Shown piece by piece: positions 12,079 through 64,000 of a DNA stretch of 64,000 nt (positions are counted from its first letter, which is position 1; each line of letters opens with the position of its first letter). The stretch comes from Acuticoccus mangrovi (GTDB lineage Bacteria > Pseudomonadota > Alphaproteobacteria > Rhizobiales > Amorphaceae): positions 310,001 through 374,000 of the forward strand of contig NZ_JAEKJA010000007.1 of the NCBI RefSeq assembly GCF_016411865.1, given 5' to 3'. Both the position numbers and the translations under genes were made by a program. The notes below the pieces were generated by a model. The model ran no database searches. It worked only from the letters and a program-made list of their open reading frames with translations, and was not told the origin of the DNA.

Positions 12079-12096
12079 GATCAGGCCGGCCTGATC
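12079..12096. repeat. Perfect 18-bp palindrome over the aconitase-X small-subunit stop
   Basis: GATCAGGCCGGCCTGATC is a perfect palindrome that includes the TGA stop (12081-12083, minus strand). It lies in the convergent gap behind the L,D-transpeptidase gene. As RNA it could fold into a short hairpin. No T-run follows. Confidence 0.5.
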
Positions 12097-12494
12097 GTCG
12101 CGCCCTCCGCACCGGCGACGATCGCGAGGACGGCGGCTTCGGGCAGGCCGTCCCACGTGTCGCGGCGAATGACCGGCGGCGCGCTGAGCCCCATCTCGCG
12201 GGCGACGAGGCAGCCGACGACGAGGATCGCGTCCACCTTGGTGAGGAGCACCGCCGCCGGTGCGAGGCCGGCGTGGACGAGCTCCAGCATCACCGAAGAG
12301 GACGAGGAGGAGCCGATCAGGTCCGGGATAGCCACCACGCGGCCGGCGAGCGACACGCCGCGCTGGGGGTGGCGGCCGTTGATGATGCGGCCCGTCGCCG
12401 GATCGACGCCGCCCCAGAAGCTGAGCGGCGCGGTGAGCGGCAGGAAAGCGCCCGACGCGGTGCCGGCGAAGAGGGTGTCGGCGGTCAGCTCCAC
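12081..12494 (-). CDS. Aconitase-X swivel domain, small subunit (DUF126 type)
   Basis: Aconitase X enzymes are dehydratases. Characterised members include bacterial cis-3-hydroxy-L-proline dehydratase and archaeal mevalonate 5-phosphate dehydratase. In many bacteria the swivel domain is a separate small subunit, as here. The 137-residue frame has the family pattern of GGVDPATGRIINGRHPQ and a serine-rich active-site run (IGSSSSSSVMLEL). I chose the GTG at 12494 because it starts directly at the conserved VELTAD strand. It overlaps the end of the large-subunit gene by 10 bases, indicating coupled translation. The substrate here is not known. Confidence 0.85.
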   Translation of the reverse strand: MELTADTLFAGTASGAFLPLTAPLSFWGGVDPATGRIINGRHPQRGVSLAGRVVAIPDLIGSSSSSSVMLELVHAGLAPAAVLLTKVDAILVVGCLVAREMGLSAPPVIRRDTWDGLPEAAVLAIVAGAEGATIRPA

Positions 12495-13756
12495 AGCGAA
12501 AGGTCCCGCCGCAGCGTGCCGGCGACGGCGGTCTCGACGCAATCGGCGAGGCTGCCGTAGATCACCGCGTGGCCGATGTTGCCGGGCGCATAGTGGGCGA
12601 ACTTGCCGGAGTTGGTCATGAGCACGCCACCGGCGGCGGGGATGATGCGGGTCGCGACGATGCAGGTGTCGGCGACGAGGGTCACCCCGGCCGCGTCGAG
12701 GGCGGGAAGGTGGCCGCGCGCCTCGAGCTCGGCCACCACGTGGCGCCCGGTGTTGGCGTAGAAGGGCAGGCGGGCGCGACGGCCGGCGAAGGTGTCGATC
12801 AGCGCCTCGAACTCGCCGAGCGAGAGGTGGGGGGAGCCGATGCCCACCGCGCTCACCGCCTCGTCGGCTCCGGTCGCGGTGGACAGCAGCGCGAGCGCCT
12901 CGCCGATGTCGCCCATGGTGAGGCGCTCGACGTCGGCATCTGCGCCGTCGAGCGCGGCGGCGAGGGTGGGGGCCTCCGGCGTCTCGCCGACCACGTGGAA
13001 GAGGCCGACGGCGCCGAACGAGGCCGCCGCCGCGCCGAGCGCCTTCAGCCGATCCTCCGAGGCGAAGCCTTCGAGCCCGGTGATCGCCGGCACCCGCTCG
13101 CCGGCCTTGCGGCCGGTCAGCGCGCCGAGCACGGGCCAGAAGGCGTCCTCGTCCTTGAGGCGGTCGGGCAGGGCGGAGGCGTCGAGCACGAGGCGCGCCC
13201 GGCGGTTCTGCGGCAGATGCAGGCCGACGGCGGGGGCGGCGCCGGCGATGGCGCAGGCGATGTCGAGAAAGTCGCCGTAGCGGTTGGTGCGGGCGCCGAG
13301 CACGGAATTGCAGAAGGCGACGGCGTTGCTCTCGCCCCAGGCGACGTCCTCGCCCACGGCGGGACGGTGGCCCGCCTGATAGGGCGCGCAGGTGAAGGTG
13401 GAGCGGCAGCCGAGCGCCTGATAGGCCTGCATCAGCCGTAGCGCCATCGCCCGGCGCTCCGGCGGCATCCGCACGTTGCCCGGCTTCATCAGGTCGAGGG
13501 CGCCGATATTGAGCGTCGCCGGCACCGCGACACTGGCGCCGAGCGCGACGAGATGCTCGGCGAAGAGGGTGCCGGCGTCGCCGTGGTAGAGGCAGCCGTC
13601 GATGTGAGCGGAGGCGACGGGCACCAGACGGCGCGCGCCGAGGAGGCGGGCGGCGTCGGCAACGAGGCGCATCGCGGCGGCGGCGCCCTCGCCCGCCTCA
13701 CCGGCGAGCATCGCCCGCTCGCGCTCGCCGAGGGTCAACGACCCGGTCTCCTCCAT
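12485..13756 (-). CDS. Aconitase-X catalytic subunit, large
   Basis: The 423-residue protein matches the catalytic part of aconitase X: an early AHIDGCLYHGD motif, the core QAYQALGCRSTFTCAPYQ, WGESNAVAFCNSVLGARTNRYGD in two adjoining blocks, and a C-terminal SGKFAHYAPGN. The cysteines in GCRSTFTC and in AFCNS are the expected iron-sulfur or metal ligands. It forms a pair with the swivel subunit gene that overlaps its end. The upstream gene on the same strand, 52 bases away, is the RibA-like gene, so the three may share a transcript. Its best-known bacterial role is hydroxyproline breakdown, but no other hydroxyproline gene is nearby. Confidence 0.88.
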   Translation of the reverse strand: MEETGSLTLGERERAMLAGEAGEGAAAAMRLVADAARLLGARRLVPVASAHIDGCLYHGDAGTLFAEHLVALGASVAVPATLNIGALDLMKPGNVRMPPERRAMALRLMQAYQALGCRSTFTCAPYQAGHRPAVGEDVAWGESNAVAFCNSVLGARTNRYGDFLDIACAIAGAAPAVGLHLPQNRRARLVLDASALPDRLKDEDAFWPVLGALTGRKAGERVPAITGLEGFASEDRLKALGAAAASFGAVGLFHVVGETPEAPTLAAALDGADADVERLTMGDIGEALALLSTATGADEAVSAVGIGSPHLSLGEFEALIDTFAGRRARLPFYANTGRHVVAELEARGHLPALDAAGVTLVADTCIVATRIIPAAGGVLMTNSGKFAHYAPGNIGHAVIYGSLADCVETAVAGTLRRDLSLWS

Positions 13757-13808
13757 CGCCCAACCCCTCGCCGCATCGTGGCGCGGCCCGCGCCTGCGAG
13801 CGCTGCCG

Positions 13809-14492
13809 TCAACGCTGATAGATGTAGCCGCGGGCGATCTTCTCCTCAATCTCGGCGGCGGCGCGGGCGGAGCAGCCCTGGGTATAGAGGTCGATGGCGG
13901 AGGAGACGTTGATGCCCTCGCCCTCGAGGTCGCGGATCTTCTCCGGGTTGCCGGTGATGAGCTGCACCGAGTGGATGCGCAGCGCCTTGAGGAGCTTCGC
14001 CGCGGCGGTGTAGCCGCGGTGGTCGACGGAGAAGCCGCGGGCGATGTTCGCTTCGTCCGAGGAGTAGCGGCGCGGCCCGCGATGGCCGTCGGTGAAGCCA
14101 TATTGGAGGGCGAGGCAATCGAGCTTGTTGGGCAGGCCGATGCCGCGCCCTTCCTGGCGCAGATAGATGAACACGCCTTCGCGCCGCGCCTCCATCTCCT
14201 CCATGGCGAGGCGGAGCTGGTCGCCGCAGTCGCACATCGAGGAGCCGAAGGCGTCGCCGAGGATGCACTCGGAGTGGACGCGGGAGACCACGTCGTGCCC
14301 GCCGGCGAATTCGTCGAGCGCGGCCTTGTAGAGATCGTCGACCTTCAGCCAGTCGCGCTGACCGTAGAGCATGGCGAAATGCGGGTGGTGGCCGAGCGGT
14401 TCGTCCTTCTCCTCGAAGCCGACGCACAACCAGATGCGGTTCTGCAGCTCGACCGGGGCGATCGACCGACAGTTCAACCCGTGCGCGTCCAT
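13809..14492 (-). CDS. GTP cyclohydrolase II family protein (RibA-like, divergent)
   Basis: GTP cyclohydrolase II opens the imidazole ring of GTP, releasing formate and pyrophosphate, to give a diaminopyrimidine ribosyl phosphate. The zinc ligands are present: Cys76 in HSECILGD and Cys87 and Cys89 in CDCGDQL. The catalytic YLRQEGRGIGL follows. The later region (DGHRGPRRYSSDEANIARGF) departs from the usual RibA pattern, so this may be a specialised paralogue and not the riboflavin housekeeping enzyme. AAGGGA before 14492 supports that start, and 14510 is an alternative. A reductase of the RibD C-terminal family lies nearby at 15339-16037. Confidence 0.8.
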   Translation of the reverse strand: MDAHGLNCRSIAPVELQNRIWLCVGFEEKDEPLGHHPHFAMLYGQRDWLKVDDLYKAALDEFAGGHDVVSRVHSECILGDAFGSSMCDCGDQLRLAMEEMEARREGVFIYLRQEGRGIGLPNKLDCLALQYGFTDGHRGPRRYSSDEANIARGFSVDHRGYTAAAKLLKALRIHSVQLITGNPEKIRDLEGEGINVSSAIDLYTQGCSARAAAEIEEKIARGYIYQR

Positions 14493-14763
14493 TGAGTCCC
14501 TTAGATCCATTCCCTCACGTCCTCGGCAACGCTTGCACCTTCCCCCACGTCTTGGTGCTGCGCGCGGGAAGGTCAACGCAGAGGTCGCGATTGTCGCGCA
14601 CCGGCGCCGCGAGGGCTACGCAAACGGCCCCGTTCTTAGTTCAACTCTGGGTTCACAAGTTCGTGGGGAGGCGGCCGCTTGACAGGAGGATGCCCGCCCT
14701 TCCTCCTGTGGGCGAACCACAGGCGCCCGTCGACCAGGGCGTGCGCGACCGGAGGATGTGAGG

Positions 14764-15333
14764 ATGGCAGTGGATCAGCAGTCGGCCGGGCGCGCTCTGC
14801 CAGTAGCCTATTCGGCGGTGGCGAAGGGCTTCCACTGGATCACGGTGCTCGCCGTCGCCGCGCTTCTCGCGCTGGGCTTCTGGATGGCCTCGCGCGCGGA
14901 GGCGAACGTCTGGGGGTCGCTGACCGACACCCTCTTCGCCTCGCACAAGATCATCGGCTTCACGCTCCTCTGGTTCACCGCGGCGCGCCTTCTGTGGCGG
15001 CTGTTCCGCGGGGCGCCGCCGGCGGCGGTGAGCGGCGTGCAGAAGCTCGTGGCGGCGATCACCCATTGGGGCCTCTACGCCGTCCTGATCGCGGTGCCGC
15101 TGTCGGGGTGGGCGGCGGTGTCGGCCTTTCCCGCCCTCAACATCTTCGGCCTCTTCGACCTGCCGGCGCTGATCTCGCCCGACAAGGAAGCCTACGGGCA
15201 GATCATCGAGGTGCACGAGACGTTGGTCTGGGTGCTGATCGTCCTCGCCGTTCTCCACATCGCGGCGGCGCTCTATCACGGCGTGGTGCGGCGCGACGGG
15301 GTGTTCTCGCGGATGTGGCCGCGGTCGCTCTGA
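14764..15333 (+). CDS. Cytochrome b561
   Basis: This is a 189-residue inner-membrane protein with four hydrophobic segments. Histidines lie in the positions expected for two b hemes: His24 in KGFHW, His61 in SHKI, His101 in THWG, and His151, His165 and His172 near the end. The family passes electrons between quinol and periplasmic or membrane partners. GGAGG lies eight bases before the ATG at 14764. The next gene, the RibD-type reductase, begins 5 bases after the stop, so the two are probably one transcript. A role in supplying electrons to the nearby pathway is only a guess. Confidence 0.9.
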   Translation: MAVDQQSAGRALPVAYSAVAKGFHWITVLAVAALLALGFWMASRAEANVWGSLTDTLFASHKIIGFTLLWFTAARLLWRLFRGAPPAAVSGVQKLVAAITHWGLYAVLIAVPLSGWAAVSAFPALNIFGLFDLPALISPDKEAYGQIIEVHETLVWVLIVLAVLHIAAALYHGVVRRDGVFSRMWPRSL

Positions 15334-15338
15334 ACCCC

Positions 15339-16037
15339 ATGGTGGCGGACGGGCCAGTGGATGGGGCGGTGCTCGAAAGCCTTGCGGCCCTCGCGGTCGC
15401 GCGGGCGACGGGGGCGCCGCTGGTGGTGGCGCAGATCGGCCAGTCGATCGACGGGCGCATCGCCACCCCGTCGGGGCATTCCCACTACATCAACGGGCCG
15501 GACGCCATCGGCGTCCTCCATCAGCTGCGCGCGAACGTCGATGCGGTGGTCGTCGGCGCCGGCACCGCCCAGGCCGACGATCCGCAGCTCACCGTGCGCC
15601 ACTGCATCGGCCGCGATCCGGCGCGGGTGCTGATCGATCGGCGCCGCCGGGCGGGGGCGGGGCTGCGGATGCTCGCCGGTCCCGGGCGGCGCATCGTCTT
15701 CGGCGCCGCCGCGCCGGACGATCCGGAAGGGGTGGAGGTGATCCCGCCGGCGGCGGTGGACGCGCCGCTGGAGCCCGCCGCGATCCTCGCTGCCCTCGCC
15801 GCGCGGGGATTGCGCCAAGTGCTGGTGGAGGGCGGGGCGGCCACGGTGAGCGCCTTCCTCGCCGCCGGCGCGCTCGACCGGCTCTGCGTCCTCGTCGCGC
15901 CGATGCTGATCGGCTCCGGTCCCATCGGCGTCGATCTGCCGGGGATCGACCGGCTCGACGATGCGCTGCGGCCGCGCGTCACCGTGCTGCCGCTCCCCGG
16001 CGGCGACGTGGTGTTCGACTGCGACCTCAGGAGTTGA
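15339..16037 (+). CDS. RibD C-terminal-type (dihydrofolate-reductase-like) reductase
   Basis: The 232-residue protein corresponds to the reductase half of RibD, which reduces the ribosyl side chain of a diaminopyrimidine phosphate with NADPH. It has the opening strand APLVVAQIGQSIDGRIA, the VGAGTAQADDPQLTVR segment and the LVEGGAATVSAFL motif. The deaminase half of RibD is absent, so it is a stand-alone reductase. It follows the cytochrome b561 gene by 5 bases and ends in an 11-base overlap with the convergent methyltransferase gene. Together with the RibA-like gene it suggests chemistry on a GTP-derived pyrimidine. Confidence 0.85.
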   Translation: MVADGPVDGAVLESLAALAVARATGAPLVVAQIGQSIDGRIATPSGHSHYINGPDAIGVLHQLRANVDAVVVGAGTAQADDPQLTVRHCIGRDPARVLIDRRRRAGAGLRMLAGPGRRIVFGAAAPDDPEGVEVIPPAAVDAPLEPAAILAALAARGLRQVLVEGGAATVSAFLAAGALDRLCVLVAPMLIGSGPIGVDLPGIDRLDDALRPRVTVLPLPGGDVVFDCDLRS

Positions 16038-16815
16038 GCGGCAGCGCCAGAACGTCCTCGTGGCCGACGAGGAGGCGGCTGACGCCCTCCGCCCGCGCGG
16101 CGCGCCAGTCGGCGATGGCGTCGGCCGCGTCGGGGCGGATCTCGTGGGCGGCGGCGGCCCAGCCGTCGAGCGTCGCGGCGATCAGCGCGGCGTCCGCCTC
16201 GCCGAGGACCCAGGGGGTGTCGCGTCGCTCCACGGCGAAGCCCGCCGCCGCGAACACCTCCACGATGACGGCGGGTCCGTCGGGCCCGACGGCGCGGCCG
16301 AACGACTTCTCGCCTTGTTGGTGCGCGTTGAAGGCCTCGCGCATCGCCGCGTCGAAGGGGTGGGCGGGGGTGAGTTCCAGCCGACCGTCATAGGTCAGCA
16401 TGGCGAGGAGCGGGGTCCGGTCGGCCGCGAGACGGTCGGCGAGGGCGGCGATGTAGTCGCGCGAGGCGAGGTCGAAGAGGGCGGACGCGGTCACGAGGTC
16501 GGCCCGCCCCTCCCAGGGAGCCGGCGTGGCGGTCAGATCGGCGACGCGGGTGCTGACGGTGATGTCGCCCGGCGGCGCCTTACCATGCGCGAGGAGGCTG
16601 GCATCGGCGTCGACGAGCAGCCAGTCCTGCGGTCCGGGCAGGCGGGAGGCGAGCGCACGCAAGGTCGCGCCGGTGCCGGCGCCGAGGTCGACGATCCGCA
16701 GTCGATCCCCGACGGTTCCGCGGGCGATGCGGCCGGCGCGATCGATCAGCTCGAGGCTGCGCGCGCGGGCGTCGGCCGGGGCGCGCAGTGACAGCCAGTC
16801 GGCGGAAAAGCTCAA
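16027..16815 (-). CDS. Class I SAM-dependent methyltransferase
   Basis: The 262-residue protein has the SAM-binding motif IVDLGAGTGATLRAL, an acidic residue after the next strand (LLVDADASLL), and LVTASALFDL as the later motif, which is the usual Rossmann methyltransferase plan. The only sensible start is TTG at 16815. It overlaps the stop of the glycosyltransferase gene (TTGA), giving a coupled pair. It is the last gene of a four-gene operon running from 19278 down to 16027. The methyl acceptor is unknown, and the setting suggests a glycosylated pyrimidine or pterin. Confidence 0.85.
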   Translation of the reverse strand: MSFSADWLSLRAPADARARSLELIDRAGRIARGTVGDRLRIVDLGAGTGATLRALASRLPGPQDWLLVDADASLLAHGKAPPGDITVSTRVADLTATPAPWEGRADLVTASALFDLASRDYIAALADRLAADRTPLLAMLTYDGRLELTPAHPFDAAMREAFNAHQQGEKSFGRAVGPDGPAVIVEVFAAAGFAVERRDTPWVLGEADAALIAATLDGWAAAAHEIRPDAADAIADWRAARAEGVSRLLVGHEDVLALPLNS

Positions 16816-17867
16816 CCCTGCAGCTCCTGCACCAGACGGGAGACGATGGCGCCCGTCTCCTCCCATCCGTCGAACGTCTTGGCTGCGGCGGCGGCGCCGG
16901 CGGAGAGGCGCTCCGACAGGGCCGGACCGGTGAGGACGGTGCGCAGGGCGGCGGCGAAGGCATCGGCGGCGTCGACGTCGACGAGGATGCCGGCGGTCTC
17001 GGGAACGACGTCGGGGATCGCGCCGCCGCGGGTCGCGACGATCGGCAGGCCGGACGCCATCGCCTCCGCGAACACCATGCCGAATCCCTCGTAGCGCGAG
17101 GCGAGGGCGAAGAGGCTCGCCTCGCGGTAGACGGCGCGGATCTCCGCTTGCCCCGCCTCGCCGATGAAGGCGATGCGGCGACCGAGCCCGGCGGCGGCGA
17201 TCTGGTTGGCGAGGGCGACCACCGCGTCGGGCGCGCGATCGAGGCTGCCGATGATGGTGGCGTTCCACGCGAGGTCGCTCACCTTCGCGAGCGCCGCGAC
17301 GAGGATGTCGAACCCCTTGCGCGGCACGATGCTGGCGACGGACACGATGCGCGGCGGACGGGCCGGCCGGCGCGCGGTGGACTGGTGCCAGGCCCCGTCG
17401 AGGCCGGGCACGGCGACGTGGATGGCGTCGGCGGCGACGCCATAGTCGGCGACGAGGGTGTCGCGGGTGTGGCGGCTCGTCACCACCACGGCGCGGGCAT
17501 GGGTGAGGGCGGCGCGCTCGCGTGCGGCGATGGCGGGGGCCGCGTCCGGCGCGACGCCCGTCTCGAGCGCCAGCGGGTGGTGCACGACGGCGACGATCGG
17601 CGCGGCGACCCGTTCGAGCCCCTCGGCCGGCAGGGCGCCATAGGCCAGACCGTCGACGAGCAGCGTTGTGGTGGCGGGAACGGCGGCGAGGCGGGAGAGG
17701 GCGCCGTCGAGCGTCGGCCCGTCGGGATCGGGGAAGCCGTCGCCCAAGGCGAGCGGGGTCACCGTGTGGCCCGCCGCCTTGAGGGCTTCGATGAGCCGCC
17801 GGTCGTAGCCGTAGCCGCCGGTGAGCGTGTCGAGATCGCCGGGATAGGCGAACGTGATTGGGCGCAT
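16812..17867 (-). CDS. GT4-family glycosyltransferase
   Basis: The 351-residue protein has the two-domain GT-B plan of GT4 enzymes. The N-terminal domain opens with ITFAYPGDLDTLTGGYGYD, the glycine-rich acceptor-side loop. The C-terminal domain has VASIVPRKGFDILVAAL and the nucleotide-sugar motif RYEGFGMVFAEAMASGLPIVAT, which gives the E-X7-E glutamates. The start at 17867 lies one base after the stop of the PTPS-like gene (TGAGATG). No membrane segment is present. It probably adds a sugar from a nucleotide donor to a small molecule, because no polysaccharide genes surround it. Confidence 0.88.
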   Translation of the reverse strand: MRPITFAYPGDLDTLTGGYGYDRRLIEALKAAGHTVTPLALGDGFPDPDGPTLDGALSRLAAVPATTTLLVDGLAYGALPAEGLERVAAPIVAVVHHPLALETGVAPDAAPAIAARERAALTHARAVVVTSRHTRDTLVADYGVAADAIHVAVPGLDGAWHQSTARRPARPPRIVSVASIVPRKGFDILVAALAKVSDLAWNATIIGSLDRAPDAVVALANQIAAAGLGRRIAFIGEAGQAEIRAVYREASLFALASRYEGFGMVFAEAMASGLPIVATRGGAIPDVVPETAGILVDVDAADAFAAALRTVLTGPALSERLSAGAAAAAKTFDGWEETGAIVSRLVQELQG

Positions 17868-17868
17868 C

Positions 17869-18267
17869 TCAGAGATCGGCTTCGTACCAGGCCCGGGCGA
17901 CGTGGGACTCGTTGAGCGCGACACGTAGCCGCCTGACATTGGCGCCATCCTCCCCCATGCCGCCGCTTCTCAATTCGGCGGCGAGCTTATCGAAGATCCA
18001 CTTCGCCAGAACCTCGGTGGTGGACCGGGTCGCCGCGAAATCGGGTAACGCATCGAGATTGCGAAAGTTCAGCTCGCCGAGAACGCGCTTCAGCACGTCG
18101 GCGGCGAGGCCGATATCGATCACGATGTCGTTGGGACCTAAGGTATCGCAGAAGAAGGCGGCGTCGACCACGAAGGTCGCCCCATGAAGCTGCTGCGCCG
18201 GGCCGAAGGCGTCGCCGGAGAGGCTATGGGCGATCATGATGTGGTCGCGGACTTCGAGGGCGTACAT
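17869..18267 (-). CDS. 6-pyruvoyl-tetrahydropterin synthase (PTPS/QueD) fold protein with altered active site
   Basis: The 132-residue length and pattern match the PTPS/QueD family, which acts on dihydroneopterin triphosphate. His14 (MIAHSL) and His28 (LHGATF) fit two of the three zinc ligands. The third, normally the second His of HGH, is Ala30. The catalytic Cys normally four residues before HGH is Ala24, and the catalytic His pair of LDHHYLN reads LNFRNLD. The Glu near the C-terminus (LNESHVARAWYE) is kept. So the fold is likely but ordinary activity is not. The gene starts directly at the stop of the dehydrogenase gene (TGA then ATG) and ends one base before the glycosyltransferase gene. 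Confidence 0.75.
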   Translation of the reverse strand: MYALEVRDHIMIAHSLSGDAFGPAQQLHGATFVVDAAFFCDTLGPNDIVIDIGLAADVLKRVLGELNFRNLDALPDFAATRSTTEVLAKWIFDKLAAELRSGGMGEDGANVRRLRVALNESHVARAWYEADL

Positions 18268-19278
18268 TCAGGCTCCTTGGGCGTCGTAGGTGATGAGAAT
18301 CCCGAGCGCACCGGGCTCCTTGAGCAGGCCGGGCAGGCGGGCGGGCGCTTCGGCGAGGGGGACTTCGTGGCTGATGAGGGCGTCGAGGGCATCGTCTTCC
18401 AGGAGGCGCATGACGGTAGCGAGGCGGCGGCGGTGGGTCCAGCGAGCCGCCCGCGCCGCGGGGATGCGTCCCACCTGCGAGGACTGGATGGTGAGGCGGC
18501 GGGCGTGGAAGGCGCCGCCGAGGGTGACGCGCTGGGTGCCCTCGCCGTGCCAGCTCGCCTCCACGATGCGCGCCTCGAGGCCGGCGGCGGCGATCGCCAT
18601 GTCGAGCCCGGCATCGGAGCCGGTGGCGTTGATCGCCACGTCGACGTCGGCGGGAAGGGAGTGCGGGGCGGCGAAGGCGGCCCCCATCGCCTCCGCGGCG
18701 GCGCGCTTGGCGGGGTCGGCGTCGGCGAGCGTCACCTCCACCCCGGCGATGCGGGACAGGAGGCGCGCGACGAGCAGGCCCACCACCCCGGCGCCGATCA
18801 CAAGGACGCGATCGCCGAGCGAGGCACCGGAGTCCCACACGATGTTGAGGGCCGTCTCGAGGTTGGCGGCGAGGGTGGCGCGGCGCGGCGGCACGCCTTC
18901 GGGCACCAGCGACACCGCGTCGGCGGCGACCACCGCGGCCGACTGATGCGGGTGGAGCGCGAAGCCGATGCGCCCGATCAGCGCCGCCGGCCCCTCCGCG
19001 ATGCGGCCGACGAGGGCGTAGCCGTACTTCACCGGAAACGGGAACTCGCCTTCCTGGTGGGGGCAGCGCATCCGCTCCGTTTCGGACGCCGGGACGCGGC
19101 CTTCGAGCACTAGACGCTCGGTGCCGCGGCTCACCGCCGAGGCGATGGCGACGAGCCGGACGGCGTCGGAACCGACGGGCGGGAGCGGGGCGGACGCTAA
19201 CGCATACGTGTCTTTTCTTTCGCACCACAACGCCGTAGCGCGATGCTCGTCACATCCTCTGGCCGCAATATGCCGCAT
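18268..19278 (-). CDS. Medium-chain dehydrogenase/reductase without zinc ligands
   Basis: The protein (336 residues) has the MDR plan: a GroES-like N-terminal domain and a Rossmann domain with GDRVLVIGAGVVGLLVARL. The usual catalytic-zinc Cys segment is replaced by ASAVSRGTERLVLEG, the form seen in the BchC-like and related SRGTE branch, so it is probably a zinc-free NAD(P)-dependent reductase. A second block, EGEFPFPVKYGYALVGRI, also fits that branch. GGGGAG upstream supports the start at 19278. It is the first gene of the dehydrogenase-PTPS-glycosyltransferase-methyltransferase operon, where all spacings are between -4 and +1 bases. Confidence 0.8.
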   Translation of the reverse strand: MRHIAARGCDEHRATALWCERKDTYALASAPLPPVGSDAVRLVAIASAVSRGTERLVLEGRVPASETERMRCPHQEGEFPFPVKYGYALVGRIAEGPAALIGRIGFALHPHQSAAVVAADAVSLVPEGVPPRRATLAANLETALNIVWDSGASLGDRVLVIGAGVVGLLVARLLSRIAGVEVTLADADPAKRAAAEAMGAAFAAPHSLPADVDVAINATGSDAGLDMAIAAAGLEARIVEASWHGEGTQRVTLGGAFHARRLTIQSSQVGRIPAARAARWTHRRRLATVMRLLEDDALDALISHEVPLAEAPARLPGLLKEPGALGILITYDAQGA

Positions 19279-19386: not shown

Positions 19387-21174
19387 ATGGTGCACCGATC
19401 CGCCTCAGACACCACGTTCGCGACGCAGCGGCCCCTGTCGGACCGGGGACGGCTGCGGCGCGCGGGGCGCCTTCTACGGCGCCGGCGGATCATGGTGGCG
19501 ACGCTCAACGGCGCCACCATCCTCACGCTCGCGGTGGCGATGGGGGTGGTGCTGTTCTCGACAGGCTTCGCGCTCGCGAAGGTCGGCATGTGGCTCGCCT
19601 TCGTCACGACGCTGCCGTGGCTCTCCATCGGCTTCTGGAACGCGATCATCGGCACGTTCGTGCTCGCCCGTGGCGAGGACGGCGACGACCCCTTGGCGCT
19701 GGAGGCGCCGGCCTTCGCCCCCGTCACCACCCGCACGGCGCTCGCGATGGCCTTGCGCAACGAGGCGCCGGGCCCGGCGATCGCGCGGGTGCGGGCGATG
19801 CTCGACGATCTCGCCCGCGAGGGGATGGCGGCGCATTTCGACGTGCATCTCCTGAGCGACACCGACGATCCGGAGATCGCGGCGGAGGAGGAGAGGCTCG
19901 TCGCCGCCTGGCGGGCGCAGAGCCCATTGGCCGATCAGATCTTCTATCGCCGACGGGCCGTCAACACCGGCTACAAGGCGGGCAATCTGGAAGAGTTCTG
20001 CCGCCGGGCGGGGGAGGATTACGACTTCTTCCTGCCGCTCGACGCCGACAGCTTCATGGGGGCGGCGGCGGTGCTGCGCCTGGTGCGCATCATGCAACGT
20101 CACCGCCGCATCGGCATCTTGCAGAGCCTCGTGGTGGGCACGCCCGCGACCGCCTTCTTCACCCGCGTGTTCCAGTTCGGCATGCGCCACGGGATGCGGG
20201 CCTATACCGCGGGCTCGGCCTGGTGGACGGGCGATTGCGGCCCCTATTGGGGTCACAATGCGTTGATCCGCACCCGCGCCTTCCGCGACCACTGTTCGCT
20301 GCCGACGCTGAACGGCAGGGGCCCGCTCGGCGGCGCGATCATGAGCCACGACCAGGTCGAGGCGGTGCTGATGCGGCGCGCCGGCTACCACGTGCGGGTG
20401 CTGGCGGAGGAGGGGGAAAGCTACGAGGAGAACCCGCCGACGCTGCCCGACTTCATCCGCCGCGAGCTGCGCTGGTGCCAGGGCAACATGCAGTATTTTC
20501 AGCTCCTCGCGATGCCCGGTCTGCGGCCGATGAGCCGGGTTCAGCTGTCGCTCGCGATCCTGATGTATCTCGGCGCGCCGGCATGGATGGCGTTCATGGG
20601 CTTCGGCGTCGCGCTTCTCTTCGGGCCGGCGGGCGTCGGGGACTATCCGGTGGGCCTCGGCCTCGCGATCTTCGCGGCGGTGATGGCGATGACCTTCGCG
20701 CCCAAGCTGATGGGGCTCGCCGGCGTCGTCGCCTCGGCGCGCGAGAGCGCCCGCTACGGCGGCCGGGGCCAGGTGGTGCTCGGCGGCGTGGTGGAGCTTC
20801 TGTGCTCGGCGATCGTCGCGCCGGTGGTGGCGTTCGCGGTGGCGGTGTTCGCCGTGGGCCTCGCCTTCGGCCAGCGGCTCGACTGGCGGGCCCAGTCGCG
20901 CGCGGTGAGGCGCGTCGGCTGGGGCGAGGCGATCACCACCTTCCTGCCGCAGACGGCGGCGGGGATCGCCCTCTTCGCCGTGTTCGCGGTGATGGCGCCG
21001 GGGGTGCTCCCGTGGGCCGCGCCGGTGATCGCGGGCTTCGTGCTCGCGGTGCCCTTCGCCGTCCTCAGTGCCGGCGAAGGCGTGGGGCGGTGGGCGACCG
21101 CCGTCGGCCTCTGCGCGATCCCGGAGGAGGGGCAGCCGCACCCGACGCTGTCGCGGCTGGCGCTCGCGGCATAG
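19387..21174 (+). CDS. mdoH: Glucans biosynthesis glucosyltransferase MdoH/OpgH
   Basis: MdoH builds the beta-1,2-linked backbone of osmoregulated periplasmic glucans from UDP-glucose and passes it through the inner membrane. The 595-residue protein has two N-terminal transmembrane segments, a cytoplasmic GT2 domain with FLPLDADSF (metal-binding DXD), SHDQVEA and the LRWCQGNMQ motif (the RW acceptor-site pair), and about five transmembrane segments after it. AAGGGAG four bases before 19387 fixes the start. The usual partner mdoG is not next to it. The gene is divergent from the dehydrogenase operon and convergent with rpoH. Confidence 0.9.
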   Translation: MVHRSASDTTFATQRPLSDRGRLRRAGRLLRRRRIMVATLNGATILTLAVAMGVVLFSTGFALAKVGMWLAFVTTLPWLSIGFWNAIIGTFVLARGEDGDDPLALEAPAFAPVTTRTALAMALRNEAPGPAIARVRAMLDDLAREGMAAHFDVHLLSDTDDPEIAAEEERLVAAWRAQSPLADQIFYRRRAVNTGYKAGNLEEFCRRAGEDYDFFLPLDADSFMGAAAVLRLVRIMQRHRRIGILQSLVVGTPATAFFTRVFQFGMRHGMRAYTAGSAWWTGDCGPYWGHNALIRTRAFRDHCSLPTLNGRGPLGGAIMSHDQVEAVLMRRAGYHVRVLAEEGESYEENPPTLPDFIRRELRWCQGNMQYFQLLAMPGLRPMSRVQLSLAILMYLGAPAWMAFMGFGVALLFGPAGVGDYPVGLGLAIFAAVMAMTFAPKLMGLAGVVASARESARYGGRGQVVLGGVVELLCSAIVAPVVAFAVAVFAVGLAFGQRLDWRAQSRAVRRVGWGEAITTFLPQTAAGIALFAVFAVMAPGVLPWAAPVIAGFVLAVPFAVLSAGEGVGRWATAVGLCAIPEEGQPHPTLSRLALAA

Positions 21175-57340: not shown

Positions 57341-57502
57341 TTTGGAGGTGTTCTTGCGACGCAAAAAGCAATCGCCTATGCGTCAAAGGCCGCGCGCGTC
57401 ATATGGGCTGCCCGATGCGTGCGTGCGACCGGCACAGGGCGCACATCCCGTGCGACCGGGCCCCAAGTCCAGTCTCGTCGGTCGGGCTAGAGGATCGTGC
57501 GT

Positions 57503-60500
57503 ATGACGGTGTCCGCTTCGAGGGTTGCACTTGTGGGGTCGGCGTGCCGACTTCCGTCGGCCCGGGGCCTGGACGCATTCTGGGACGTCCTCATCAACGG
57601 CCGTTGCGTCATCACAGAACTCGACGAGGATCGCTTCGGCACCCGCCAGCACCTCCATCCCGACCGCGCCCGCCCCGGACGCGCGGTGACCTTCGCCGCC
57701 GGCCAGGTCGAGGCGCCGTTCGCCTTCGATCCGAGCTATTTCGGCATCTCGCCGCGCGAGGCGCAGGCGATGGACCCGCAGCAACGCATTCTCCTCGAGG
57801 TGGTGGTCGAGGCGCTGGAGAACGCGGGCATCCCCGCCGACAAGCTCGCCGGCGAGAAGGTGGGCGTCTATGTCGGCGCCTCCTCGATCGACTACGGTAC
57901 CCACGCCCAGCTCGACACCGCCAGCATCGAGCCCCAGTCGATGACGGGCAACACGCTGTCGATCATCGCCAACCGCGTCTCCTACGTGTTCGACCTGCGC
58001 GGGCCGAGCTACGTGGTGGATACGGCGTGCTCCTCCTCGCTCATCGCCCTCCACCACGCGATGGAGGACATCCGCCTCGGCCGCATCGACACCGCTATCG
58101 TCGGCGGTGTGTCGCTGCTGCTCCATCCCGTGCCTTTCATCGGCTTCTCGCGGGCGCAAATGCTGTCGGCCAACGGCCTCTGCCGCGCCTTCGACGCCGG
58201 CGCCGACGGCTACGTGCGCTCCGAGGGGGCCGTCGCCCTCGTGCTGCGCTCCGACAAGGCGGCGCGGGCCTCGGGCGACCACATCCGCGCCCGCTTCGTC
58301 GCCTCCGGCATCAACGCCGACGGGCGGACCGCGGGCCTCTCGCTGCCCTCGATGGAGGCGCAGGCCGCGCTGCTCGAGGAGGTCTACGCCAAGGGCGGCA
58401 TCGACCCGAACCGGCTCGCCTTCATGGAGGCGCACGGCACCGGCACCCGCGTCGGCGATCCGATCGAGGCCGAGGCGATCGGCCGGGTCGTCGCCACCAA
58501 GCGCGACGCGCCGCTGCTGATCGGCTCCTCGAAGACCAATTTCGGCCATCTGGAGCCCGCCTCCGGCCTCGTCGGCGTGCTGAAATCGCAGCTCGCCCTG
58601 GCGAACGACGCGCTGCCGGCCTCGCTCCATTTCGACGCGCCCAACCCCGACATCCGCTTCGCCGAGCTCAATCTGACGGTGGCGGCGGAGGCGACGCCGC
58701 TCGCGCGCGGCGACGAGCCGCGGCTTGCGGGCATCAACTCGTTCGGCTTCGGCGGGGCCAACGCCCACGTGGTGGTGGAGGACGGCGAGCCCGTCGCGCC
58801 CGCCTCGGGGGCGCCGGTCAAGGCACCGCTGGTGGTCTCGGCGGCGAGCAAGGCCGCGCTCGCCGCGCTCGCCGGTGCCACCGCCGACCGTCTCGCCGGC
58901 GGGGCCGACGCGCGCCGCTACGCCAACGCCGTCGCCTACCGGCGTCAACGCCTGCCGTTCCGCGCCGTGATCGCGCCGGCCGAGGCGGGCGAGATGGGGG
59001 CGGCGCTCGCCGCCGTCGCCAAGGGCGAGGAGCATTCTCTGGCGATCACCGGCGAGGCGAGCGTCGCCGCCGAGAAGCCGGTGTTCGTCTATTCCGGCAA
59101 CGGCTCGCAGTGGGCCGGGATGGGCCGCGTCGCCTACCAGAGCGAGACCGATTTCCGCCTCTCCTTCGACCGGACGGACCGCGTGTTCATGTCGGTTGCC
59201 GGCTGGTCGCTGGTGACGATGCTGTTCTCCGAAGACCTCGACGTCGAGATCGAGCGGACCGAGATCGCCCAGCCGCTCCTCTTCGCCCTGCAGGTGGCGA
59301 TGACGGAAGCGCTGCACCGCCAGGGCCTGTCGCCCTCGCTGGTAATGGGCCACTCGGTGGGCGAGGTGGCGGCGGCCTGGGCGAGCGGTGCGCTGAGCCT
59401 GTCCGACGCGGTGCGGGTGATCCACGCCCGCTCCACCCATCAGGAGGTGACGCGTCACCTCGGCGGCATGGCGGCGCTGCTGCTGCCGCCGGAGGAGGCG
59501 CGGGCGGCGATCGCGCCGTTCGCGGGGCTCGAGCTCGCGGCGATCAACTCCAACCGCTCCGTCACGATTTCCGGCCCGATGGACTCGCTCGCCGCATTCG
59601 GCAAGGCGGCGCGGGCAAAGCGCTGGGCCGTCAAGCGGCTCGATCTCGACTATCCGTTCCACTGCGCCCTGGTGGAGCCGATCCGCGAGCCGCTGATGGG
59701 CTCGCTGGAGGCGATCGGGCCGCGCGAGTGCCGCGTGCCGATGATCTCCACCGTGACCGGCGGCCCCATCGCCGGGCCGGAGCTCGACGCGCACTATTGG
59801 TGGGAGAATGTGCGCCGGCCGGTGCTGTTCCGCGAGGGCGTGGTCGCCGCTCTCGCCGACCATCGGCTGTTCCTGGAGATCGGTCCGCGCGCCGTCCTCA
59901 CCACCTACATGACCGACGCCGCGCGGTCCGCCTCGCTCAAGGCGACGGTGTTCTGCTCCTTCCGGCAGAACGATCCCGACACCGGGCCGATCGGCACCGT
60001 GGTGCGCAACGCGCTCGCGAACGGCGCCGCGGTCGACGATGTCGTGGTGTTCGGCGCCAAGCGGGCCGGACCCGACCTCCTGCCCAACTATCCCTGGCAG
60101 CACGACACCTACCGCCATGCCGTGTCGGTGGAGCGGGTGCGGCTCGACGCGAAGGTCGAGCACGTTCTCCTCGGCACGCGCCTGCGCATCGACGATCGCG
60201 ACTGGCGCAGCTTCATCGACACCAAGAGCGTGCCCTTTCTCGCCGATCACAAGGTGGAATCGGCGGTGGTGTTTCCGGCGGCGGGCTTCACCGAGATGAT
60301 CCTGTCGGCGGGCCGGGCGCTCCACCCGGGCGCCCCGATCGAATTGCGCAATCTCGACATCTTCGCCCCGCTGGTGATCGACGGCGACGTGGAGCGGCAG
60401 CTTCGCACCCGGGAGATCGCGCCCGGAACGCTCCTCATCGAGAGCCGGCCACGGCTTTCGGAGGACGGGTGGACGCCGCACGTGAAGGCGACCGTCGGCA

Positions 60501-63500
60501 AGGCGCCGTCGGCTCCGGCGGCCGGTCCCGCGCTGGAGCTGCCCGAAGGTGCGGCGACGGTGCCGGCGGCGAAACTCTACGAGATGACCGGCAGCTTCGG
60601 CCTGCCCTACGGTCCGGTGTTCCGCCGCGCGAGCCTCGTGACCCTGGTGGACGACGCGCATGCGCACGTCCGCCTCGCCCCGGCCGACCCGGCGACGCAG
60701 CGCTACCACTTCGCGCTCGATCCGACGCTGTTCGATTCCTGCTTCCACGCCCTCTTCGCCTTCCTCGCCGGCAAGCTCGCCGGGACCGACACCGCGGTGC
60801 TGCCGATCCGCGTCGGCCGTCTGGTGCTCGCCGCCGAGGCCGGCGCGCCGGTCGAGGCCGACATCGCGATCCGCCTGCCCACCGAAGGCATCGTCGAGGC
60901 CGACTTCACGCTGCGCGACGGCGAGGGGACGGTGGTCGCCGTCGCGACCGGGGTGCGCTTCCAGGCGGTGCCTCTGTCGCGCGCCACCGGCGGCGAGACG
61001 CTGATGGCGGCGCCGCTCCTGCGGCGCGTCACCCGCGCCGCCGAGCCCGCGACCGTGCGGGCCACCCTGCCGGCCGATCTGGTGGCCGAGGCGGGTGCCG
61101 AGCCGTCGGAAACGGCGCTGCTCGTGGAGGCCGGCGTGCAGGCCGCCGCCGCGGAGGCGCTCGCCCCGCTGTTCTCGGGGGCGGCGCGGATCATGGACCT
61201 CGTTGCGACGGGCGCGCTGGCGCCGAGCGCGGCTCCGCTCGTGGCGCGCCTGTTGATGGCGCTGGAGGCCTCCGGCGCGGCCGAGGAGGCCGGCGCGGGC
61301 TGGACCGTCGCCGAGCGTTCCATCGCCGTCGCCGACGTCGTGAGCCTCCTCATCGCCGAATATCCGGAGCGGCTCGCCGAGGCCGCCATCCTCGCCGCCC
61401 TGCCCGAGTGGCTCACCGCGGTGATGGCGGACGGGCTCGCGGCCGACGGGCCCTTGGTCGCCGAGGCGCTGTTCGACGAGCTCACCACCGACGCGCCCTT
61501 TTCGGCGCCCGCCTTCGCGGCGCTGCGGGAGATGGTGCGCACGACGCTCGATCGGGGCGGCGACACGGCGATGCGCGTCTGCGTGCTCGGGGCGTCCAAC
61601 ATGCGCTTCGTGCGCGCCGTCGCCGACCTCGTCGACCCAGCACGGGTGAGCCTCGTCGTGAGCGACCGGGACCAGACCATGCTGGAGCGGGGCCGTCTGG
61701 TGTTCGAGCGCACGGTGGGGGTCGCCTTCGTCGACTTCGAGGAGCTCGCGTCCTCCGGCCATCCGTTCGACCTGATGGTGCTGCCGCCGAGCCTCGCCTC
61801 GGTGCATCTCGGCGATCTCGCGCGGCTGATGAAGCCCGGCGGGGCGTTGATCGGCGCCGCCTACGCGCCCGGCCTCTTCGCCGATGCGGTGGGCGGGCTC
61901 GAGGCCGCCTGGTGGTTGGGCTCGGCCGATGCGGAAAACCCTATCGGCCGCCTCGTCACCGCCGAGGAGTGGACCGCCGCGCTCGACGACGCGGGCTTCT
62001 CCGGCTCGGTGATGCCGCTCGCGAGCGGCGAGACGGACGCCTTCCTCTTCGTGGCGCACGGGCGCGGCCTCGAAGCCGTGGCCGCCGAGGAGGCCGCGGA
62101 GGCGCAGACGCTCCCCTCGCTGCACGCCATGGGCGAGAGCGCCCGCAGGGTGGCGATCGCCCTCTCGGCGATGGGCGAGGACGTCACCGTCGACGATCTC
62201 TCCGCGACGCCGACCGGCGCGGCCCTCGTCGCGATCGACGTACCAGATCCGGCCGAGCTTCCCGTCCACCTCGCCGAGCTCGGCGCCTTCCTCGCCCGCC
62301 TCGGCACCGAGGCGCGCGACGTCACCCTCGTGACGTTCGGCGCGCAGGGCGTCTCGGCGAGCGAGACGCGGCCGTCCGCCGCCGCCGTCGCCGCGTTCGG
62401 CCGGGTGGCGATCAACGAGTTTCCGCACCTTCAGATCCGCCTCGTCGACATCGCGCCGAGCTTCGATGCGAGCGAGGCCGCGGTGCGGCTCTTCGCCGAG
62501 CTCGCCCAGCCCAACGCCGAGCGCGAGGTGGTGCTGTCGAGCGACCATCGGGCCGCGGTGCGCTACGTGCCGGCGGTGCCGGCGCCGCGCGAGGCGGGGG
62601 AGGCGAAGGTGCTCGCCATCCCGCGGCGCGGCTCGATCGATCATCTGGAGTGGCAGGCGGCGGCCAGTCCGCCGTTGGCGCCGGGCGAGGTGCGGCTCAA
62701 GGTCGAGGCGACGGGCCTCAACTTCCGCGACGTGATGTGGACGCTCGGGCTCCTCCCCGCCGAGGCGCTGCAGGACGGCTTCGCCGGGCCGACGCTCGGC
62801 ATGGAGTGCGCCGGCATCGTCGAGGCCGTGGGCGAGGGGGTCGAGGATCTCGGCCCGGGCGATCCGGTCATCGCCTTCGCGCCGGCCTGCTTCGCGAGCC
62901 ACGTGACGGTGCGGGCCGACGCCGTGGCGCGTCGCCCCGCCGCGCTCGGACCGGAAGCGGCGGCCACCATTCCCGTCGCCTTCCTCACCGCCTTCTACGC
63001 GCTGGTGGAGCTCGGCGGGCTGGAGGAGGGCGAGACCGTTCTCATCCACGGCGGGGCCGGCGGCGTCGGGCTCGCCGCGCTGCAGATCGCCAAGTGGCGC
63101 GGGGCCAAGGTGTTCGCCACCGCCGGCACCACCGAGAAGCGGGCGCTGCTGACCCGCCTCGGCGCCGACCGCGTGTTCGATTCGCGCACCCTGACCTTCG
63201 CCGACGAGACGATGGCGGCGACCGGCGGGGAAGGCGTCGACATGGTGCTGAACTCGCTCGCGGGCGAGGCGATGGAGCGCTCCATCGACGTGCTGAAGCC
63301 GTTCGGCCGCTTCCTGGAGCTCGGCAAGCGCGACTTCTACGCCGACACCAAGCTGGGGCTGCGCCCGTTCCGCCAGAATCTCAGCTACTTCGGCATCGAC
63401 GCCGACCAGCTGATGAAGCATCGGGCGAAGCTCGCCAAGCGCCTCCTCGGCACGATCATCGACCTCTTCGAGGAGGGCGACTTCACGCCGCTGCCCTATC

Positions 63501-64000
63501 GCTCCTTCGCTGCCGGCGCGGTGCGCGACGCCTTCCGCCTGATGCAGAGCGCCGGCCATATCGGCAAGATCATCGTCGAGGCGCCGGCCTCGGAGCGGCC
63601 CGCCGAGGTGCCGGTCGCGGCGGTCGTCGATCCCGACAAGGCGTATCTTCTGGCCGGCGGAACGTCGGGCTTCGGCTTCGCCACCGCCGAGTGGCTGATC
63701 GGCGAGGGGGCGCGCCATCTGGTGCTCGCGAGCCGCTCCGGCGTGAAGGACGACACGGTGGAGGCCGCCATCGCCCGCCACCGCGAGGCGGGGGTGGAGA
63801 TCACCGTCGCCGCGCTCGACGTGACCGACGCCGCCGCCGTCAAGGCGCTCGTCGACGAGATCGTGGCCGAGCGCCCCCTCGGCGGCATGTTCCACATGGC
63901 GATGGTGCTCGACGACGCCCTCATCACCTCGCTCGACGCCGACCGGTACGCGACGGTGCTCGACCCGAAGATCGGCGGCGTGCTGGCGCTGGAGGCGGCG
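57503..64000 (+). CDS. Type I reducing polyketide synthase, truncated by the window edge
   Basis: At least 2166 residues are encoded without a stop. KS: about 1-430, with Cys176 in DTACSSSL, His311 in EAHGTGT and His349 in KTNFGHLE. AT: about 525-850, Ser618 in GHSVGE. DH: about 880-1160, His916 in LADHKVESAVVFP (Ser in place of the usual Gly) and Asp1078 in LFDSCFH. A methyltransferase-like region (about 1355-1480) has lost its SAM motif (VCVLGASNM). ER: about 1710-2030, GGAGGVGLAALQIA near residue 1850. KR: begins near 2045 with GGTSGFGFATAEWL. The ACP and rest lie beyond the window. ATG at 57503 has AGAGGA upstream. Product unknown. Confidence 0.95.
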   Translation, partial: MTVSASRVALVGSACRLPSARGLDAFWDVLINGRCVITELDEDRFGTRQHLHPDRARPGRAVTFAAGQVEAPFAFDPSYFGISPREAQAMDPQQRILLEVVVEALENAGIPADKLAGEKVGVYVGASSIDYGTHAQLDTASIEPQSMTGNTLSIIANRVSYVFDLRGPSYVVDTACSSSLIALHHAMEDIRLGRIDTAIVGGVSLLLHPVPFIGFSRAQMLSANGLCRAFDAGADGYVRSEGAVALVLRSDKAARASGDHIRARFVASGINADGRTAGLSLPSMEAQAALLEEVYAKGGIDPNRLAFMEAHGTGTRVGDPIEAEAIGRVVATKRDAPLLIGSSKTNFGHLEPASGLVGVLKSQLALANDALPASLHFDAPNPDIRFAELNLTVAAEATPLARGDEPRLAGINSFGFGGANAHVVVEDGEPVAPASGAPVKAPLVVSAASKAALAALAGATADRLAGGADARRYANAVAYRRQRLPFRAVIAPAEAGEMGAALAAVAKGEEHSLAITGEASVAAEKPVFVYSGNGSQWAGMGRVAYQSETDFRLSFDRTDRVFMSVAGWSLVTMLFSEDLDVEIERTEIAQPLLFALQVAMTEALHRQGLSPSLVMGHSVGEVAAAWASGALSLSDAVRVIHARSTHQEVTRHLGGMAALLLPPEEARAAIAPFAGLELAAINSNRSVTISGPMDSLAAFGKAARAKRWAVKRLDLDYPFHCALVEPIREPLMGSLEAIGPRECRVPMISTVTGGPIAGPELDAHYWWENVRRPVLFREGVVAALADHRLFLEIGPRAVLTTYMTDAARSASLKATVFCSFRQNDPDTGPIGTVVRNALANGAAVDDVVVFGAKRAGPDLLPNYPWQHDTYRHAVSVERVRLDAKVEHVLLGTRLRIDDRDWRSFIDTKSVPFLADHKVESAVVFPAAGFTEMILSAGRALHPGAPIELRNLDIFAPLVIDGDVERQLRTREIAPGTLLIESRPRLSEDGWTPHVKATVGKAPSAPAAGPALELPEGAATVPAAKLYEMTGSFGLPYGPVFRRASLVTLVDDAHAHVRLAPADPATQRYHFALDPTLFDSCFHALFAFLAGKLAGTDTAVLPIRVGRLVLAAEAGAPVEADIAIRLPTEGIVEADFTLRDGEGTVVAVATGVRFQAVPLSRATGGETLMAAPLLRRVTRAAEPATVRATLPADLVAEAGAEPSETALLVEAGVQAAAAEALAPLFSGAARIMDLVATGALAPSAAPLVARLLMALEASGAAEEAGAGWTVAERSIAVADVVSLLIAEYPERLAEAAILAALPEWLTAVMADGLAADGPLVAEALFDELTTDAPFSAPAFAALREMVRTTLDRGGDTAMRVCVLGASNMRFVRAVADLVDPARVSLVVSDRDQTMLERGRLVFERTVGVAFVDFEELASSGHPFDLMVLPPSLASVHLGDLARLMKPGGALIGAAYAPGLFADAVGGLEAAWWLGSADAENPIGRLVTAEEWTAALDDAGFSGSVMPLASGETDAFLFVAHGRGLEAVAAEEAAEAQTLPSLHAMGESARRVAIALSAMGEDVTVDDLSATPTGAALVAIDVPDPAELPVHLAELGAFLARLGTEARDVTLVTFGAQGVSASETRPSAAAVAAFGRVAINEFPHLQIRLVDIAPSFDASEAAVRLFAELAQPNAEREVVLSSDHRAAVRYVPAVPAPREAGEAKVLAIPRRGSIDHLEWQAAASPPLAPGEVRLKVEATGLNFRDVMWTLGLLPAEALQDGFAGPTLGMECAGIVEAVGEGVEDLGPGDPVIAFAPACFASHVTVRADAVARRPAALGPEAAATIPVAFLTAFYALVELGGLEEGETVLIHGGAGGVGLAALQIAKWRGAKVFATAGTTEKRALLTRLGADRVFDSRTLTFADETMAATGGEGVDMVLNSLAGEAMERSIDVLKPFGRFLELGKRDFYADTKLGLRPFRQNLSYFGIDADQLMKHRAKLAKRLLGTIIDLFEEGDFTPLPYRSFAAGAVRDAFRLMQSAGHIGKIIVEAPASERPAEVPVAAVVDPDKAYLLAGGTSGFGFATAEWLIGEGARHLVLASRSGVKDDTVEAAIARHREAGVEITVAALDVTDAAAVKALVDEIVAERPLGGMFHMAMVLDDALITSLDADRYATVLDPKIGGVLALEAA

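Follow-up and report, generated by a model that had tools for sequence, protein, structure and literature searches.

Why does one short cluster of an alphaproteobacterial genome combine riboflavin-type genes with a PTPS-fold protein, a glycosyltransferase and a methyltransferase? The cluster lies in the window analysed here, a stretch of 64,000 nucleotides from Acuticoccus mangrovi (NCBI RefSeq assembly GCF_016411865.1, contig NZ_JAEKJA010000007.1, positions 310,001 to 374,000 of the forward strand). We found that it is no chance assembly: the gene set behaves as one pathway across genomes. With moderate confidence, we read it as a dedicated pathway that branches off GTP by a riboflavin-type route and whose product would be a ribityl-pyrimidine or pterin with a methyl group and usually a sugar. 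The gene set itself, its conservation, a separate clade for its reductase and the loss of PTPS residues were computed directly. The genes of the locus are as follows.

13809-14510, minus strand: RibA-like GTP cyclohydrolase II (GCH II) paralogue of 233 aa (PF00925, E 2.4e-37)
14758-15333, plus strand: cytochrome b561, directly 5' of the reductase gene (PF01292, E 3.2e-29)
~15339-16037, plus strand: stand-alone RibD_C-type pyrimidine reductase (PF01872, E 7e-36)
16027-16815, minus strand: class I S-adenosylmethionine methyltransferase with a TTG start (PF13649, E 9.1e-8)
16812-17867, minus strand: GT4 glycosyltransferase (PF00534, E 2.5e-30)
17869-18267, minus strand: PTPS-fold protein, a T-fold of the PTPS-IV type with the FGPAQ signature (PF01242, E 1e-21)
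18268-19278, minus strand: zinc-free medium-chain dehydrogenase/reductase (MDR) enzyme, first gene of the operon (PF00107, under its cut-off)
19420-21174, plus strand: MdoH-type glucosyltransferase, divergent from the dehydrogenase gene and often found as an accessory gene beside the cluster, start uncertain

These Pfam and NCBIfam assignments bear out the six genes and the b561 named in a preliminary description of the window. It was also correct that dehydrogenase, PTPS, GT4 and methyltransferase genes form an operon with spacings of 0, +1 and -4 bases, the last being a 4-base overlap of the methyltransferase and GT4 genes. The b561 and RibD_C genes are separated by ~5 bases on the plus strand and converge with this operon, the ends of the RibD_C and methyltransferase genes overlapping by 11 bases; the RibA gene is divergent from b561.

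In a class sample of 337 alphaproteobacterial genomes, the PTPS-fold protein (E <= 1e-5) and the dehydrogenase (E <= 1e-30) each match 40 genomes, and the two sets are identical; in one genome (G035) the two genes sit on separate contigs. When the six families were sought together in other alphaproteobacteria, the neighbours proved conserved. Among 40 class-sample loci (39 neighbourhoods and the window, <=20 kb each), the dehydrogenase is present at 39, GT4 at 38, the methyltransferase at 35, RibD_C at 32 and RibA at 14. Further neighbours are less frequent, namely a CDP-alcohol phosphotransferase (13 loci), YceI (11), b561 (10), MdoH (10), creatininase (6) and a sulfatase-like protein (5). 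With 10 of 40 loci, b561 is accessory. With a limit of E <= 1e-35, chosen after the list was seen, the window RibD_C matches 33 genomes: 32 of the 40 PTPS-positive genomes and 1 of the 297 others, that one being 74% complete. A wider scan of named genomes confirmed at least 589 of 595 listed stretches, several on short contigs. The best 80, which are biased because they were chosen as closest to the window, carry the dehydrogenase at 76 loci, GT4 at 76, the methyltransferase at 69, RibD_C at 51, MdoH at 47, RibA at 32 and b561 at 30. In a sample of the phylum, matches at E <= 1e-20 came from 27 of 398 genomes. Pairwise distances of PTPS, dehydrogenase, GT4, methyltransferase and RibD_C correlate with r of 0.67-0.84 over the 69 loci that hold all five, the observed value being reached by 0 of 500 permutations for every protein pair.

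The families of RibA and RibD_C are those of riboflavin synthesis, and the cluster could be an alternative or backup supply of riboflavin (flavin or lumazine), with GT4 and methyltransferase genes as hitch-hikers. Cluster-adjacent RibA proteins in some genomes score like housekeeping RibA, and in one streamlined genome (G161) no RibD_C was found other than that of the cluster; both points fit such a supply. Copy numbers point the other way, with at least two RibD_C matches in 36 of 39 genomes. In the Acuticoccus genome itself, Pfam finds, besides those of the window, three GCH II matches and a further RibD_C match on other contigs (C12, C17, C23 and C65):

C17: bifunctional RibD (TIGR00326, 259 bits, cut-off 156)
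C12: RibB-GCH II protein with a weak GCH II part (76 bits)
C23: RibA of 364 aa (PRK00393, 210 bits, cut-off 148)
G000:C65:171787-172218: PRK07198-type protein with a GTP_CH_N domain, the fourth GCH II match (757 bits, cut-off 403), of a type tied to uracil catabolism

The cluster is not the holder of the organism's only RibA or RibD, a case that the preliminary description had named as telling against a pathway. A tree of 33 cluster RibD_C proteins (hand-picked from 88) and 21 housekeeping RibD proteins (20 from the 39 other positive genomes, and the organism's own) splits the two groups by a single branch with support 1.0 and length 0.88. Dehydrogenase, PTPS and methyltransferase, moreover, are among the most constant members of the cluster, and we know of no riboflavin step that needs any of them. 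Copy numbers, family scans and tree make a housekeeping role in riboflavin synthesis unlikely, and we consider a backup supply improbable as well.

The PTPS-fold protein departs from its superfamily at the catalytic residues. Its best solved structure is PDB 3d7j, SCO6650 of Streptomyces coelicolor, matched over the full length (profile E 3.6e-60), and an AlphaFold2 model has a mean pLDDT of 96. It is the only Pfam PTPS match in its genome. FGPAQ is exact in the window protein and in 124 of 128 aligned sequences. None of the 128 has a Cys at the two PTPS Cys positions (22 and 24). All 128 read HGAT and none HGH, so that one zinc His is lost and two of the usual three remain; the Cys-before-HGH and ExxHGH marks of PTPS-I (QueD), PTPS-II and PTPS-III are absent from these sequences. 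The Asp-His dyad, which forms the motif LDHxxL in PTPS-II and QueD, is missing too: the His position is Tyr or Phe in 126 of 128 sequences, and the Asp position is Asn in 96 and Asp in 8. The C-terminal Glu that anchors the pterin throughout the superfamily (Glu120) is kept in 127 of 128, with one gap. Ordinary PTPS chemistry is therefore unlikely, since the Cys, one zinc His and the dyad are gone even though the anchor Glu is kept, and the pterin enzyme chemistry assumed in the preliminary description cannot be taken for granted. The window protein shares the motifs FGPAQ, HGA and LNY with SCO6650, whose structure paper reportedly describes no zinc, no triad and no PTPS activity, with pterin-binding residues retained, in agreement with our residue counts.

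The gene set had been put forward as undescribed, which is true only in part: excerpts of a 2017 report (PMC5445326) give a PTPS-IV node of 561 sequences with the FGPAQ signature and with PF00925, there labelled FolE2, and PF01872 as neighbours. To the portions consulted of this report and of PMC5041015, the present analysis adds the envelope modules, the creatininase, dehydrogenase, methyltransferase and GT4 genes, the exact match in phyletic pattern and a reductase clade apart from housekeeping RibD. Excerpts of PMC5041015 state, citing unpublished work, that PTPS-IV is involved in F420 biosynthesis, which would make the cluster a part of deazaflavin synthesis. The Acuticoccus genome does have CofD, and in a single genus two genomes (L058 and L059, in G326 and G246) have it ~7 kb away from the cluster. 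F420 biosynthesis, too, starts from a ribityl-pyrimidine. The reading nevertheless fits poorly, because CofD (TIGR01819) is found in only 9 of the 40 PTPS-IV genomes (8 over the cut-off), neither streamlined genome among them. On these counts we reject F420 as the general role, and consider it very improbable that the cluster serves F420.

The entry enzyme of the favoured pathway would be RibA. Window RibA keeps the GCH II zinc cysteines (C-x10-CxC in the alignment) but, at 146.4 bits, falls just short of the PRK00393 cut-off of 148. An APy-forming GTP cyclohydrolase II is marked by Tyr at E. coli position 105. This mark is absent from window RibA, which has Leu there, as does the RibA of Acuticoccus locus L077, and which also carries an insertion. 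All 13 class-sample relatives with a local RibA have Tyr at this position; all 13 proteins are ~370 aa or more, with an N-terminal part that Pfam did not recognise in the two tested. Of 34 rows in a motif search, 28 (27 cluster loci plus the organism's own C23 gene) could be read at the site, every one as Tyr; of the other rows, five had no match and one had a match at a different place. A GCH II is present in the set, as the preliminary description had it, but the window copy is unlike the ~370-aa Tyr RibAs of related clusters. SCO6655, a GCH II with Met replacing Tyr at this switch residue, is said from work by Spoonamore in 2006 to yield FAPy instead of the deformylated product. Because Leu occupies the site at which Met reportedly gives FAPy, window RibA is predicted to form FAPy, provided that Leu acts like Met. 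The likeness to SCO6655 lies in the replaced Tyr, which is Met in a Streptomyces plasmid cassette and Leu in the window and L077; the difference is that the window has Leu rather than Met, while related cluster RibAs keep Tyr.

In archaeal riboflavin synthesis the deformylase ArfB and the reductase ArfC act at the start, and some cassettes here likewise combine a creatininase-family protein with RibD_C. Two of three such creatininase-family proteins tested gave a weak ArfB match, but all three score higher to MftE and creatininase models, with no cut-off passed, and creatininase occurs at only 6 of 40 class-sample loci. We rejected, as a simple rule, that creatininase is an obligate partner of a FAPy-forming RibA. 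Creatininase is present at 15 loci, and RibA too at 12 of them, with Tyr in 11 and Met in one (Streptomyces); the window has Leu in RibA, yet gave no creatininase match within the stretch searched. Directly downstream of window RibA, at 12081-13759 on the minus strand, lie genes for the large and swivel subunits of an aconitase X (cis-3-hydroxyproline dehydratase-like); none of the 39 related loci scanned has an aconitase X match.

Cassettes, some of them incomplete, extend beyond alphaproteobacteria to betaproteobacteria, gammaproteobacteria and actinobacteria, with Streptomyces, Microbacterium and Thiodictyon among the hosts. Among plasmids, 20 records match; 11 were examined, one of these, unannotated, being left out of the comparison. 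A whole or partial cassette lies on an Agrobacterium pAt plasmid. A mobilizable Microbacterium plasmid of 59 kb (L167) has one without RibA, accompanied by a CDP-alcohol phosphotransferase and a flippase-like gene. RibA is also missing from plasmid cassettes of Thiodictyon and Methylosinus OB3b, and both GT4 and RibA from one of Rhodobacteraceae; an unannotated Arthrobacter plasmid holds at least dehydrogenase, PTPS and GT4. The cluster has probably spread by horizontal transfer. A search of viral contigs with one protein, and of phages, gave no confirmed match that would point to a phage or viral origin.

The smallest clusters define the core. In two AT-rich genomes (1.4-1.6 Mb; GC of the locus 0.26-0.28) the order is creatininase, dehydrogenase-PTPS-GT4-methyltransferase, RibD_C, RibA, and no add-on genes lie beside either cluster. 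In Paracoccus sp. JM45, RibA, dehydrogenase, PTPS, methyltransferase and RibD_C form a tandem array on the same strand whose genes overlap or are only a short distance apart; GT4 is absent. We take the core to be RibA, dehydrogenase, PTPS-IV, methyltransferase and RibD_C, with GT4 usual but not universal. Membrane neighbours were rejected as core members because these minimal clusters, in the streamlined genomes and in Paracoccus, lack them.

Several observations weigh against a single pathway of this composition. Part of the distance correlation comes from common descent alone. Eight of the 40 PTPS-positive genomes have no RibD_C at E <= 1e-35, although two of these are the streamlined genomes with a divergent in-cluster copy and one is only 68% complete. 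RibA is near the cluster at no more than 14 of the 40 class-sample loci; elsewhere the precursor would have to come from another RibA. GT4 is absent from further clusters besides that of Paracoccus, and a Streptomyces fungicidicus plasmid cassette has no RibD_C within the stretch read. Finally, three annotated Streptomyces plasmids (L162, L200 and L201) have PTPS-IV without a cassette. These lone PTPS-IV genes have cupin and metallo-β-lactamase-fold neighbours, and two of the three a MEKHLA-domain gene. A GTP-derived methylated pyrimidine or pterin, as the preliminary description had proposed, stays the best inference for the product, whereas its glycosylation now applies often rather than always.

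Two sets of membrane genes accompany the cluster as alternatives. Among 95 loci with full flanks, MdoH occurs at 40 and the CDP-alcohol phosphotransferase at 31, but never both (p 2.7e-10). No two of these loci share an identical PTPS protein, and after thinning by PTPS similarity, which handles kinship only crudely, to 86, 71 and 41 loci, the two still never co-occur (p 3e-9, 9e-7 and 4e-4). The CDP-alcohol phosphotransferase comes with a sulfatase-like and a flippase-like protein. At two betaproteobacterial loci, a block of methyltransferase, glucan-type ATP-binding cassette (ABC) exporter and MdoH lies opposite dehydrogenase, PTPS and GT4; the ABC protein of Polynucleobacter (L102) passes the glucan exporter model PRK13657 with 814 bits (cut-off 733). 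Seven loci have a glucan-type ABC gene ~4 kb away from PTPS, on the strand opposite to it. The two modules may be alternative routes that carry the product to the envelope. The same exclusivity, together with the exporter match, would also suit an envelope-glycan or lipid gene set in which the PTPS-like protein serves for binding or structure and no pterin is made. Such a set is distinctly improbable: the minimal clusters of the two streamlined genomes and of Paracoccus have neither module nearby and yet keep RibA and RibD_C.

For the dedicated pathway off GTP, we infer each reaction, the reaction order and the product as follows. RibA would open GTP, giving a diamino- or formylamino-pyrimidine ribosylamine 5'-phosphate. 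Like the archaeal and fungal reductases, which act ahead of any deamination, the cluster RibD_C would then reduce ribosyl to ribityl. PTPS-IV, lacking the triad and one zinc ligand, may bind the pyrimidine or pterin via its conserved Glu and catalyse a distinct step, possibly the closing of a ring. An alcohol/carbonyl redox step would fall to the zinc-free MDR enzyme and a methylation to the methyltransferase, and GT4 would usually add a sugar. The accessory membrane genes, either MdoH, at some loci with a glucan exporter, or the CDP-alcohol phosphotransferase with its sulfatase-like and flippase-like partners, suggest that the product is exported or becomes attached to the envelope. A fuller picture, which we hold only tentatively and think rather doubtful, is a cross-phylum redox- or light-active ribityl-pterin, built by a T-fold enzyme devoid of PTPS chemistry, methylated, glycosylated, carried to the envelope by either of the two exclusive modules and possibly exchanging electrons with b561.

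Among the closest known systems are the pterin glycosides of cyanobacteria and Chlorobium, for which a PTPS-fold protein and a glycosyltransferase, the pteridine glycosyltransferase, belong to one proposed pathway. The present set differs: PTPS-IV has lost the PTPS residues, GCH II and RibD_C would begin the route, and the identified genes of the window cluster, the only place searched, include no GTP cyclohydrolase I. We found no description of a pathway with the full gene set in the open-access literature, nor any such pathway in the excerpts consulted of a 2026 pterin review (PMC13259868).

Among the window's other features, the dehydrogenase is weakly BchC-like and no BchC member, because it reaches 40 bits against a TIGR01202 cut-off of 291; no Cys is found at the positions that at least 93% of 39 dehydrogenase sequences share. 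The nearest solved structures of the window GT4 include inositol-phosphate (MshA-type) glycosyltransferases. An open frame of 2170 aa at 57383-63895 resembles a shadow frame and matched no Pfam family. Searches of the window for Rfam families and tRNAs gave no matches.

A core of 5-7 genes that is kept even in genomes of 1.4-1.6 Mb and carried by plasmids in three bacterial groups should make a compound valued by many environmental bacteria, although our literature searches turned up no product. The pathway would give a role to PTPS-IV (SCO6650), a family whose structure is solved but whose function is unsettled, and might also explain why bacteria have a FAPy-forming GCH II. With the tandem gene set of Paracoccus, the question becomes testable by heterologous expression.

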